Positions 6,882 through 11,865 of a DNA stretch of 30,459 bases are shown here, in pieces (the stretch's first letter is position 1; each line of letters begins with the position of its first letter). Origin of the DNA: a virus; the IMG/VR virus record IMGVR_UViG_3300022072_000084, positions 1-30,459 of that record; one strand, given 5' to 3'. The position numbers and the translations under genes were made by a program. The notes below the pieces were generated by a model. The model was not told where the DNA came from and did not search any database. It saw only the letters and a list, made by a program, of their open reading frames with translations.

Positions 6882-7645
6882 TATTTGCACTCTCTTAATG
6901 CTAGTGAAGTGTTAAAATATCCGGAATTAACATTTTCAACTAATAATGGCGAAATAAATCTATACATACCATTATACCTATTATCATTTGATACAATTCC
7001 ATCAACCTCAAGAGGGAAGTAAATAAAACAAGGCTTAACTGTTGTGACATTATCGTAAGCATTTTGTAAAATATCCATTTCCGTTGAGTCCATTATTGAA
7101 TAAGTGACGTTTGTTAGTTCTTTTCTAGTCGTTTTATAGTCAATAAACTCTTGGCCATATCTATTCGTCGATACATTTTTAAGATCTTTATTGGTGAAAG
7201 CCCAATTGTAGCCCACGCCATTAGTTAATATTTTATCAGATTTTCCAATAAACATATTCGCGAGCTCGCAATATCCTAAAGTCGAAGTACAGACTAATCT
7301 CCAATATCTATAACTTTGTTCTGTAAATTCTTTTATACCTATTCCATAAGTAGAATCTAGTTCAATTGTTGTTGTGAAGGCCGGACTCGTAAAATCTGTA
7401 CTTCCATTAGCCTCTAAAGTTAATGAAGTTACACCAAAACCATTTTGCCAGTTAGAAACAATTGCGAATGAATCCACTGCTTCGATCATGCCTAGATCAA
7501 AGATTAAGCTATCACTATCACTTAAAGATCTATACGTTTTAGTTCTTCTATCATCATTTATATTTGAAATTGGATATTGAGCGTTCTCACTTGTAGCGGT
7601 AATAAGTGCCGAATCCACAAAGTTATTTGCTAGAAATTTTATCAT
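6881..7645 (-). CDS. Distal tail protein, discoidin-like N-terminal domain
   Basis: The 254-residue product is encoded directly after the tape measure, the position of the distal tail protein in siphophages. Residues 1-140 resemble a galactose-binding or F5/8-type C fold: a short N-terminal strand, the segment DDRRTKTYRS, LIFDLGMIEAVDSFAIV, and a C-terminal YRYWRLVCTS strand, all typical of this fold, which binds carbohydrate. The remaining part is less clear. The start overlaps the tape measure stop in an ATGA junction, so translation is coupled. Carbohydrate binding would help in host surface contact, but no binding residues can be assigned by eye. Role in the tail is inferred mainly from order. 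Confidence 0.62.
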   Translation of the reverse strand: MIKFLANNFVDSALITATSENAQYPISNINDDRRTKTYRSLSDSDSLIFDLGMIEAVDSFAIVSNWQNGFGVTSLTLEANGSTDFTSPAFTTTIELDSTYGIGIKEFTEQSYRYWRLVCTSTLGYCELANMFIGKSDKILTNGVGYNWAFTNKDLKNVSTNRYGQEFIDYKTTRKELTNVTYSIMDSTEMDILQNAYDNVTTVKPCFIYFPLEVDGIVSNDNRYNGMYRFISPLLVENVNSGYFNTSLALRECK

Positions 7646-9693
7646 GCTGTAAATCCTTCTTTTTGTTGTTCTCTCATTGCGACCGCTATTTCCCTTGAAT
7701 CAATTTCAATTACGATCGGTCTATTTGCCAATTCGCTTATTGATTCTGCTAGCCCAGAGTTATTAGATCCCCCACCTTTAGAGTTAGCAAGATCAAACAA
7801 AGTTCTTTGTTGAGAGGCGTTTAAAAACATTTCTCCATTTCTAGCGTTAACCGTCGTATCATCATTTCCAAGAGTAGCTCCAGAAAAACCACCAACAACA
7901 CCACCCGTCGCGAATGATGCCATTTGTGCCGCTTGCGCTGCCTGTGCTGTCGCTGCGATTCCTGCAAAAATACCACCGAGTACAGGCCCACCGATTCTCG
8001 AACCAAAATTAAATGATGATGCGATTGCCGGAGGTGTTGCGATTGCAATTTGTAAAATTCCGGCTGCTTTTCCAATTGCCGCTAATTCTTTATTTTTATT
8101 ATTTGATAAAGATATTGCACTTGCAAAAAATGCTTGTTCGTCCCTTATCTCCAAAGCTCTTATTTGTTGTTTTGTTTTTGATCTATTTTGAGTTATTGCA
8201 ATTTCGTTTTTCGCAAAGGCTGCTTGATCTGCCAAAGATCTTGATTCAAGATCAAAAATTCCTTTATTCTTTTCAAGTGCTGATTTTAACTCTATATCTG
8301 CTTTAGAATCATTAAAAACTTGTAATCTATTTAGAGCTTCTATTCTCTGTTCACTTCCTAGATCAATATCAGCAATTGTTAATTCCTCTTCTTTTGCTCT
8401 TTGATCTGCATTTAAAGTGTCTAATTGAGATTGAAACGAAAGCCTTTCCGCTAATATTTGTTCATTTGCTAGCCTTATTCTTTTAAGCCTTGGATCTTCC
8501 TCGTCAGATTTATCTGGAGTACTTTCACTTGCTATCTTTTTCCTTTGTTCTAGCAATGATTTAATTTTACCCTCTAATACTTCAATATTTATTCCGGCTT
8601 GTTTTATTGTGAAATTTGCGTCTTTATCAAATATACCTAGAAAGCCACCCAGAGATTTAGTTGCCTCTTCAGCTCCCTTTGCTGCCGCTTGCTGTTTATC
8701 TATAAAGCTTGCAATTTGTTTGTCTATTGTTTGCAGTGGAGTTTCTATTTCCGCTAATGATCCGGCCATTCTGGAATATACTCCAATGTAATCGGCAATA
8801 AATCCTATTCCGGCTGTTAACGTGTCCTTGTTATCAACTAAAACTTTTGTTAATTCTTGAAGAGATTCCGTTATTACTGTCGCTCCATTTATTAAACTTG
8901 GAGAAAAGGCGCTTCCAATTTCTGATTGTAATAAAAAGAAATTATCTTTTAATGTTGAGATTGCTCCGTTTAAAGTTTTTGCTTGCTTCCCGACTGCTCC
9001 CTCGAATATCCCACCGGCTTCAGATAGTGAATTAAAGGCTGTTTCGAATTCATCAAAACCAACAACGCCAGATGATACTAGATCTTTAACTTTTGATTCC
9101 GCAACGCCTAAAGATTTCGCTAGTGCTGGCCCTATTGGAATAGCTCTTTCTTGAAATTGTAATAATCTTTCACCGGTTAATTTTCCGGCTGCTGAAACTT
9201 GTCCGTAAATTAAAGCTACTTCTTTTAAGTCTGAACTTGATCCGGCAGCTACCTCGCCGATTTTTTGGATCCTTTCATTTACAGTATTAGCTTCAAAACC
9301 AAAAGACACTAACTGTGCCGCCGCCTCTGAGATCCCTTGTAATTGAAAAGGAGTTCCGGCACTGTAGGCCGTTAATTCAGCGTAAAGATTTGCTGCCTTT
9401 TCTTGTGATCCGGTTAATACTTCTAATTGTGTTTTTATTTTTTCAGTTGCCGCTGCAGCCTCAAAAGATCCAATTGCAAGATTTGCTAAACCTGCTCCGA
9501 TCGCTTTGATTGCTCCACTTGTTGCAAGTGCCGCTAAATTTCCCTTAAAACTAGAAAAGGCTTGATCTGATTTTTTGACTGTATCTGCTGTATCTTTTGA
9601 AAAGCTTTCAACGCCTTTGGAGAGGTTTTTTAAAGCTTTGAGCGCTTCTTTTTCCTCGATAGTTATTTCAACACTTACCTTATTTTCTGCCAT
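7642..9693 (-). CDS. Tail tape measure protein
   Basis: The 683-residue protein sets tail length and is ejected during DNA entry. Residues about 75-260 match the tape measure N-terminal domain: GSFEAAAATEKIKTQLEVL, then TAYSAGTPFQ, a SAAGKLTGERLLQFQERAIP segment and GPALAKSLGV. A long helical region rich in Ala, Leu, Lys and Glu follows (about 360-520), then hydrophobic Ala/Gly/Ile stretches near 545-610 and a Gly-rich FATGGVVGGFSG segment characteristic of tape measure C-termini. By the usual scaling of about 1.5 angstrom per residue, the tail would be near 100 nm, shorter than lambda. It overlaps the T frame of the chaperone by 14 bases, as in lambda-type clusters. No peptidase domain is seen. 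Confidence 0.93.
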   Translation of the reverse strand: MAENKVSVEITIEEKEALKALKNLSKGVESFSKDTADTVKKSDQAFSSFKGNLAALATSGAIKAIGAGLANLAIGSFEAAAATEKIKTQLEVLTGSQEKAANLYAELTAYSAGTPFQLQGISEAAAQLVSFGFEANTVNERIQKIGEVAAGSSSDLKEVALIYGQVSAAGKLTGERLLQFQERAIPIGPALAKSLGVAESKVKDLVSSGVVGFDEFETAFNSLSEAGGIFEGAVGKQAKTLNGAISTLKDNFFLLQSEIGSAFSPSLINGATVITESLQELTKVLVDNKDTLTAGIGFIADYIGVYSRMAGSLAEIETPLQTIDKQIASFIDKQQAAAKGAEEATKSLGGFLGIFDKDANFTIKQAGINIEVLEGKIKSLLEQRKKIASESTPDKSDEEDPRLKRIRLANEQILAERLSFQSQLDTLNADQRAKEEELTIADIDLGSEQRIEALNRLQVFNDSKADIELKSALEKNKGIFDLESRSLADQAAFAKNEIAITQNRSKTKQQIRALEIRDEQAFFASAISLSNNKNKELAAIGKAAGILQIAIATPPAIASSFNFGSRIGGPVLGGIFAGIAATAQAAQAAQMASFATGGVVGGFSGATLGNDDTTVNARNGEMFLNASQQRTLFDLANSKGGGSNNSGLAESISELANRPIVIEIDSREIAVAMREQQKEGFTA

Positions 9694-10135
9694 TTTTTCT
9701 CGCTTTTTGTTCGCGCTCGTTGTCTTTTTCTATTATTAAATTATGCACTAATCCCATGGCTTCTACAAATTTAGCCGGTTGATCCATTATTGAACCATCA
9801 AAAGGTAAGAGGCCTTTGTCATATTTAGGGAAATAATTAATAAGACTAGCCCAAAAACCATTATACTCGTTACCTATACACTTTTTATAGTTAATTCTTG
9901 GATTCCCTGTGTTATTTGCACTAGGTAAATAAAAGTGTCGAGATTTTGACGCATAGTAATTGCAAGCCATGTGCTCTCTATGTTTAGGCCATTTAACTTT
10001 ATCTGAGCTGTATTTTTTCTTGCAATCTGTACATCTATACTTAGGCTCTGTAAGCGTTATAAACGTGCTGCAAATTTCCGCATAGTCTTTGTCAGATAGT
10101 GAAGAAATAGACTTAATACACTCGATTAGGTACAT
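9680..10135 (-). CDS. Tail assembly chaperone T domain, expressed as GT fusion
   Basis: This open frame has no Shine-Dalgarno site at its first ATG (10135) and continues open upstream to 10171, where the G gene ends with a GGGAAAG heptamer in the correct phase. A -1 shift there gives a 298-residue fusion: 135 from G, 12 linking codons, and 151 shown here. The T domain ends with KGLLPFDGSIMDQPAKFVEAM, a pattern typical of tail assembly chaperones. Unusually, numbering from the ATG, Cys35, Cys38, His52, His55 and Cys58 form a compact Cys/His cluster that could bind zinc. The product would coat the tape measure while the tail tube assembles. The last 14 bases overlap the tape measure start. Confidence 0.8.
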   Translation of the reverse strand: MYLIECIKSISSLSDKDYAEICSTFITLTEPKYRCTDCKKKYSSDKVKWPKHREHMACNYYASKSRHFYLPSANNTGNPRINYKKCIGNEYNGFWASLINYFPKYDKGLLPFDGSIMDQPAKFVEAMGLVHNLIIEKDNEREQKARKNGRK

Positions 10136-10167
10136 TACGACTGTGCATTTCGTACCTGTCGAGGTTA

Positions 10168-10575
10168 TTACTTTCCCTTAGAAACAACCTCTAAAGAAAC
10201 GCCATTTAATTTCTCTCCAGTAATAGGATCTGATAATTCTTGAATTCCGCTTAATAACTGCCAAGCTGCCGTCGTTAATTTGCCTCTTTGCTCTAAACTT
10301 AAAAGCTCGCTAACGCAATTATCTGTCAATTCATCATTTTGAAACTCGAGTTTATATTCCTCGCCGTCAAAACATTCTAGCCCCTCAACATTTTTTACTG
10401 CAAATTTCAAATATAAAGATTGAGCTTTTAAAAGATCATAATGATCTTCTCCATTTCTGATTGTAGTGCAATTCGAAAGCTCTATTTTCTGAAAGTGGTT
10501 TAATGGTGCAATTGTGAAAACTACATCACCAATAGTCAACTTGATCCTGTCTGATAACCTCAATATTTTAGCCAT
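10168..10575 (-). CDS. Tail assembly chaperone G
   Basis: The 135-residue acidic and helical protein occupies the slot between major tail protein and tape measure, where lambda-like phages encode the G chaperone that binds the tape measure. It starts with a beta hairpin (ILRLSDRIKLTIGDVVFTIAPLN) and continues with helices rich in Leu and Glu. The start at 10575 has AAGGAG five to ten bases upstream. The gene ends ...SKGK and the last codons GGA AAG belong to a slippery heptamer. Most ribosomes should stop here, yielding abundant G, and a fraction shift to make GT. Sequence alone gives a weak family match; synteny and the frameshift signal make the call strong. Confidence 0.82.
   Translation of the reverse strand: MAKILRLSDRIKLTIGDVVFTIAPLNHFQKIELSNCTTIRNGEDHYDLLKAQSLYLKFAVKNVEGLECFDGEEYKLEFQNDELTDNCVSELLSLEQRGKLTTAAWQLLSGIQELSDPITGEKLNGVSLEVVSKGK
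10171..10192 (-). other. Programmed -1 frameshift site (G GGA AAG) with upstream SD-like AGAGG
   Basis: On the minus strand the heptamer GGGAAAG at 10177-10171 is aligned as G GGA AAG in the G reading frame and is immediately followed by the TAA stop. It is identical to the heptamer known for the lambda G-GT shift. AGAGG at 10192-10188 lies exactly ten bases upstream, the spacing at which an internal Shine-Dalgarno sequence stimulates -1 shifting in bacterial dnaX. A small 4-bp hairpin, ACCT CGAC AGGT, lies just 3' of the stop. The -1 frame stays open through the T domain. Confidence 0.85.
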
Positions 10576-10686: not shown

Positions 10687-11865
10687 TTAGATAAATCCTA
10701 AAAATACTGAATCAGATCCAAGATTTTTATGACACTTTATTTCTACTGATTCTGCAATTATTCCGTCAACGTCTGAAACTGGAGTTGCTGTAATTTTCCC
10801 CTGTGGCAACCAATAAGCAACAACCTCGCTAAATTCTCCGGCAACGCCTGAAGGATTATAAGCATATCCGAAAACCGAAACATCTGTATTTGAGTTAAAT
10901 TTATCCCAAGTCGCAGTTGTATCATTGTCTAGTAAATAAGGGTTAAAACTAAAAGTTGTATTTTGATCTGTAATTCTTGAAGAAATACGGCCATCAGCAT
11001 CGCAAGCATCTTGAATGTAATTAACAGTATTCTCGATTGATAAACTTGCCTCTGTATAAGCTAACTTTGATCCACTTAACCAGACACAAGCTGAAAGAGT
11101 AACTGGAGGTAATCCGTCCGCTGAAAAGTCCGGAGAAAAACTTGCGTCCTCGTCAACTCTTACAATATCTAAACCTTGTAATCCAAAAGACATTTGCGGT
11201 AATTGTCCTACTGTCCAACCTTCAATATTTCCGCTTGTAGTTCTTAAACCTCTAACTTTTTGCTTAATTGCTCCAGATCCCATATTATGCTCGGCGCTAA
11301 ATTTTATCGCGTTTGCTGTATCTGAGTAATACATAGTAACCTGACCAACAACAACGCTATTTGACGGCGCTCCTCCTTCTAGTGGAAAAGCTAATGTGAT
11401 GCTTGTATTTGTTTCGACTGATGCAATCGGCCTACACTCAAAAGCCCCTGCCTCTTTTACAAGAACAATATCACCAACATTAAAATCTGTAGTATCGGCA
11501 AAATAAATCACTGTACTTGTATGAGTTGTATTATCGCTTGTTTGATCTGTGGTAATTTGCCTTTTTCCACCTAATAAAGATTTTAAAAGAACATCTAAAC
11601 TTTGTGGAGTATCGCCCTCCGTAGAACTTGCCTTAAGCTCAACGCCTAAAGTCCCTGATGCTTCAGCAACTCCAACCCTTGAAGCTTCTTGCTCGGTAGT
11701 CCCTCCGAGTGTACTCCTAGTCAATTCTTCCCTAGTTTTATTGAATTCTAAAGAGTCGCTCAAAACCTCAACGTAATCCGTTGAGCCTGTCGGGGCATTG
11801 TAAGCCTCAGTCACTTCTTCTTTTAATGCAATTGTCGATTCATTTGATACTACGCCTATAGCCAT
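10687..11865 (-). CDS. Major tail protein (tail tube)
   Basis: The 392-residue protein fits a siphophage tail tube subunit: position immediately before the G/GT chaperones, beta-rich composition, an N-terminus (VSNESTIALKEEVTEAYNAP) shared with many tube proteins that begin with a statement of tolerance to Glu/Thr-rich loops, and an expected strong ribosome binding site (AAGGA). At 392 residues it is longer than lambda V (246), so an Ig-like or other inserted domain is likely, perhaps in the middle around residues 110-190 where a GD..LV.......I..V.....I.L module resembles the modules in the hub protein. A terminator follows, as expected for a gene made in large amounts. No enzymatic motif is seen. 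Confidence 0.85.
   Translation of the reverse strand: MAIGVVSNESTIALKEEVTEAYNAPTGSTDYVEVLSDSLEFNKTREELTRSTLGGTTEQEASRVGVAEASGTLGVELKASSTEGDTPQSLDVLLKSLLGGKRQITTDQTSDNTTHTSTVIYFADTTDFNVGDIVLVKEAGAFECRPIASVETNTSITLAFPLEGGAPSNSVVVGQVTMYYSDTANAIKFSAEHNMGSGAIKQKVRGLRTTSGNIEGWTVGQLPQMSFGLQGLDIVRVDEDASFSPDFSADGLPPVTLSACVWLSGSKLAYTEASLSIENTVNYIQDACDADGRISSRITDQNTTFSFNPYLLDNDTTATWDKFNSNTDVSVFGYAYNPSGVAGEFSEVVAYWLPQGKITATPVSDVDGIIAESVEIKCHKNLGSDSVFLGFI

Follow-up and report, generated by a model that had tools for sequence, protein, structure and literature searches.

Phage lambda makes its tail proteins G and G-T by a programmed -1 frameshift (Levin 1993; Xu 2004, 2013, as summarised in PMC5009743), and the ratio of G to G-T, which is 30:1, is critical for tail assembly (PMC5009743). 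A second well-described signal, that of dnaX, consists of a Shine-Dalgarno (SD) sequence, a slippery heptamer and a hairpin (PMC5009743, PMC3711429), and in the dnaX genes of a few bacteria the zero-frame stop lies directly after the slip site (PMC5009743). A GAGG located 6-17 nt before the slippery motif is given as experimentally stimulatory, with a conserved SD present in 3 of 13 clusters from IS elements and prophages (PMC4066793), and a distance of 8-11 nt is given for internal SDs (PMC6321510). In the case of tail chaperone genes, ribosome-binding sites are among the frameshift features that PRFect scores (PMC10885494). The lambda sequence itself leaves unclear what sets the G to G-T ratio.

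We analysed a virus record of 30,459 bases (the whole of this stretch is called the window below) whose tail genes are encoded on the minus strand. Two open reading frames (ORFs), designated G and T, sit between the genes for the tail tube protein (10687-11865, minus strand; Pfam Phage_tube_2, E 4.5e-13) and the tape measure protein (7642-9693, minus strand; Pfam TMP_3, E 2e-30; PHROG tail length tape measure, E 1.7e-50). The resulting order of tail tube, G, T and tape measure is that of lambda V, G, T and H. G (10168-10575, minus strand) is an ORF of 135 amino acids with a strong SD (AAAAGGAG), which by its position and predicted fold would be the N-terminal product of a tail assembly chaperone gene. 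T (9680-10177, minus strand) is a candidate extension in the -1 frame and, counted from the GGG of the heptamer to the stop at 9680, comprises 165 codons plus the stop, not the 163 given in an initial annotation of this DNA. As that annotation had it, the -1 frame is open into the tape measure gene, with an overlap of 14 nt with the ORF of the latter (ATG at 9693).

The 3' end of G reads ...GAG GTT GTT TCT AAG GGA AAG TAA on the minus strand, and the zero frame AAG GGA AAG TAA provides a legal slippery heptamer, G_GGA_AAG (10177-10171, minus strand), directly adjoined by the TAA stop of G (10170-10168). The initial annotation had described the heptamer as legal in the frame of G, equal to that of lambda and touching the stop codon, and it was right on each of these points. 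The motif GGGAAAG occurs twice on the minus strand of the window and is absent from the plus strand. In the -1 frame, a TAA stop lies immediately 5' of the GGG; because stops bound the heptamer in both frames, a -1 shift into T is possible in the window on the heptamer only. As in lambda, the GGGAAAG is found near the end of the gene that comes after the tail tube gene, and the -1 extension precedes the tape measure gene. The distance to the G stop differs: the lambda heptamer is located 15 nt before it (lambda record), whereas here the two are adjacent. A stop touching the heptamer is nevertheless not special, because Staphylococcus phage 6ec has the same arrangement (GGGAAAG adjoining TAG, without an SD) in a tail chaperone gene whose CDS is annotated as a join of two segments.

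Relatives of the locus were gathered by searching viral contigs with alignments of G and T. They represent, with the window, eleven lineages (the window, L002, L003, L004, L005, L010, L015, L019, L022, L027 and L028), of which L004 and L005 are closely related to each other. The G identity of relatives with the same heptamer ranges from 80% down to ~54%. GGGAAAG is kept in all eleven lineages and lies directly against the G stop in ten of them; in L010, one codon (CAA) is located between the heptamer and the zero-frame stop. The codon before GGA encodes K, E, G, P or S depending on the lineage, always ending in G, as the heptamer requires. In the alignment of the relatives, the similarity of T and the conserved -1 reading begin at the heptamer itself. 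Two other events could join the frames, namely transcriptional slippage at GGGAAAG and a misassembly, and a G-T fusion, real or apparent, would be expected from both. However, the homopolymers in the tract are short (three Gs and three As), and the G/T frame relation is the same in many contigs obtained independently from different samples, so that we consider both explanations very improbable.

The -1 ORF lacks an ATG before codon 40 in 9/11 lineages. Early GTG or TTG codons are present in the T frame of some lineages, none of them conserved. An early ATG, at codon 15, is found only in the window, where it lies at 10135, 36 nt past the heptamer, and in the sister lineage L002; nine lineages have other codons there. 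Its presence would allow T to be a separate protein started at 10135, by reinitiation or from its own ribosome-binding site, with the slippery site being incidental. This ATG has no SD, since the anti-SD duplex before it amounts to +0.1 in the window (-2.5 in L002) versus a mean of -4.8 at the gene starts of this phage, and it is confined to two lineages, while the -1 reading is conserved from the heptamer onward; we therefore consider a separately started T very improbable. The missing ATG in most lineages, together with the SD-less early ATGs of the other two, argues for a route to T via frameshifting, and T is most likely produced by frameshifting only, as a G-T fusion. With a conserved heptamer, a conserved -1 reading and no usable start for T, the lambda-type -1 G-T frameshift put forward in the initial annotation is strongly supported. 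A programmed -1 frameshift at the end of G thus very likely yields a G-T fusion, with a predicted junction peptide spanning SKGKVITSTGTK. We infer where the shift takes place, its direction and the dependence of T on it from the sequence and its comparison with the relatives. In lambda the fusion is made at a low level, and by analogy a low-level fusion would be expected in this phage too.

Other arrangements were observed in more distant relatives of T. L032-L042 have a homologous G with T in its -1 frame, and no GGGAAAG; the G homologue of L033 and L037 ends AAG AAA AAA TAG, and L039 and L040 carry A_AAG_GGC within the overlap. Tail loci weakly similar to the C-terminal part of T were seen in L043-L046 and in Agrobacterium phage JP1 (L008). 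They contain A_AAA_AAC adjoining TGA (L044-L046), one codon before the stop (L043) or, in JP1, in frame and more distant from the stop. A search of the phages collection returned no match for G and one weak match for T (JP1, E 1e-3), and scanning genome contigs with the T alignment found no relative.

Upstream of the heptamer, the window contains AGAGG (10192-10188, minus strand) at a gap of exactly 10 nt, as reported in the initial annotation. The internal SD-like core of this element, GAGGU (10191-10187, minus strand), is 9 nt from the heptamer and can form a 5-bp anti-SD duplex of -6.5 kcal/mol. The best duplex at the lambda site reaches only -2.1 to -2.5 kcal/mol, which agrees with the earlier remark that lambda G-GT shifting is not known to use such an SD. 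Among the relatives, the gap is 10 nt in six lineages and 7 nt in one clade (L004/L005, L010 and L022), so that 10/11 lineages have the element at a distance inside the 6-17 nt range described as stimulatory (PMC4066793). In L027/L030, GAA replaces GAG and the heptamer is kept.

The Glu codon of GAGGU is GAG in 10/11 lineages versus 4.5 expected (p 2.5e-4 if the lineages are independent), a bias stronger than at any other of the 28 invariant degenerate columns, with one Gln column close (p 7.5e-4). The ratio of GAG to GAA is 10:1 at this column versus 34:43 at the other Glu columns (Fisher p 0.007), and by parsimony on a G+T tree the GAG column requires one change, compared with 2.8 on average at two-fold columns. 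Even L028, in which GAG accounts for just 16% of Glu codons, has GAG at the SD position. Tested against synonymous shuffles in single genomes, the strength of the SD duplex was not unusual (p 0.17-0.37, combined 0.22); the case for the SD therefore rests on conservation.

It could be argued that AGAGG is inert, that GAG GTT is there only to specify the Glu-Val conserved in G, and that the rate is set by the heptamer, either by itself or together with a downstream hairpin. Glu-Val is indeed conserved as protein, GAG is not a rare codon, the duplex is within chance for any single genome, and the heptamer occurs with no such SD in L027/L030, in lambda and in phage 6ec. Such a reading sits poorly with the codon bias described above, which sets this column apart from the other Glu columns and extends to L028, and with the fact that the hairpin reaches its highest significance (z -3.1) in the sole lineage lacking GAG. 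We find an inert AGAGG rather doubtful, and a real contribution of the SD to the frameshift reasonably likely. The putative SD would act by pairing with 16S rRNA, to which it is complementary, and its codon is conserved. Taken as a selected element, the internal SD is moderately supported and probably genuine; the exact ten-base spacing is not conserved. Comparison of the same locus in related phages, which the initial annotation had proposed as a check on its lambda-type slip with dnaX-like SD spacing, thus upheld the heptamer and the SD codon and did not uphold the ten-base gap.

Downstream of the heptamer, starting 5 nt past it, an RNA hairpin is predicted at 10165-10118 (minus strand) with a minimum free energy of -16.2 kcal/mol. 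In the window, its z score is -3.03 against dinucleotide shuffles and -2.84 against synonymous shuffles of T, and it ranks second of 128 windows placed along T. Over the 11 lineages, the Stouffer score is -3.8 with relatedness ignored. The z values are -2.2 to -3.1 in L003, L004 and L027, -1.4 to -1.6 in L002 and L015, and -0.8 to -0.9 in L005 and L028; of the 11 lineages searched, L010, L019/L021 and L022 gave no hairpin. A hairpin universal to the relatives was therefore rejected, the structure being present in the window and in most relatives. A pairing of the upstream GAGGUU with a downstream AACCUC in the window was also considered and dropped; it is not seen in L002.

The lineage L027/L030, without the SD and with the most significant hairpin, hints at a trade-off between the two stimulators, as a single case. 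Since, in addition, the hairpin-less lineages keep the SD, the internal SD and the hairpin may jointly set tail-chaperone frameshifting and be mutually substitutable in evolution, a possibility that we put forward tentatively. The combined signal of a lambda heptamer and an SD proposed in the initial annotation is supported strongly for the frameshift and moderately for the SD, but the hairpin had been missed and the signal would be tripartite. On the sequence evidence, the heptamer, the putative internal SD and the predicted hairpin are a dnaX-like tripartite signal in a tail chaperone gene.

According to the mechanism that we propose, ribosomes arriving at the end of G would hold GGA and AAG of G_GGA_AAG in their P and A sites. 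A fraction of them would move back by one base, onto GGG and AAA, and so bypass the adjoining stop and continue in the frame of T, giving a minor G-T fusion from the tail assembly chaperone gene. Two elements would stimulate slippage: upstream, GAGGU, by pairing with 16S rRNA during elongation, and downstream, the hairpin, whose start lies ~5 nt past the heptamer. On the model of lambda, G would coat the tape measure protein and the rarer G-T would link it to tail tube subunits.

Compared with lambda, the window thus differs in having a GAGGU SD-like element and a strong hairpin ~5 nt downstream, and in that its G and T show no sequence similarity to named families. With E. coli dnaX, it has in common the three-part layout, in which an SD-like sequence ~10 nt before the heptamer is followed, past the heptamer, by a hairpin. 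The heptamer itself differs (A_AAA_AAG in dnaX, G_GGA_AAG here). Also unlike in dnaX, the shift in the window would yield the longer product, and the hairpin is not kept in all relatives.

Similar layouts occur in unrelated tail chaperone genes. A scan for the pattern TAGAGGT-N9-GGGAAAGT returned 26 contigs, with the G-T layout only in the relatives and in L053. The latter contains GAGGT-N9-GGGAAAG-TAA and a hairpin of -15.9 kcal/mol (1513-1600) in an unrelated chaperone (PF23857) and, having come from a pattern that requires an SD, is an example and not a frequency. Enterococcus phages, for example dArtagnan, have tail chaperone genes with A_AAA_AAG, an SD-like sequence and a hairpin. In four Enterococcus phages (L073, L074, L076 and L079), the chaperone is annotated as two CDSs with A_AAA_AAG between the SD-like sequence and the hairpin, and the join is unannotated. 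The chaperones of L053, phage 6ec and the Enterococcus phages belong to protein families different from those of G and T of the window.

Pfam and PHROG profile searches gave no significant match for either G or T. A sequence search of the PDB found nothing for G and chance matches for T, and a PDB fold search with T likewise found nothing. The structure model of G (mean pLDDT 89.8) matched the HK97 tail assembly chaperone 2ob9 best among PDB entries, with a Z of 4.5, weak in absolute terms, versus 2.8 for the next entry. It also matched predicted viral tail assembly chaperones with a probability of 0.95-0.97 and modest absolute scores. Together, these matches of a predicted structure are suggestive of a tail assembly chaperone fold for G. 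In T, the cysteines at positions 49, 52, 72 and 100 of the -1 ORF (9683-10177 in the window, minus strand) are invariant in 18 relatives, which suggests that the T domain has a metal-binding site.

Each component of the signal is already known and, given the precedents of lambda, dnaX, phage 6ec and L053, so is the kind of device, which is found here in an undescribed phage group and an uncharacterised protein family. Phage annotation gains from this group a chaperone pair that had not been annotated, consisting of G and a T with four conserved cysteines. The group also provides natural variants on a constant heptamer, with the SD present or lost, a spacing of 10 or 7 nt and the hairpin present or absent, so that the contribution of each stimulator becomes directly testable. 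If the internal SD and the hairpin do set the frameshift jointly, the G to G-T ratio in these phages would be under a dnaX-type control that can be tuned, of a sort not described for lambda.
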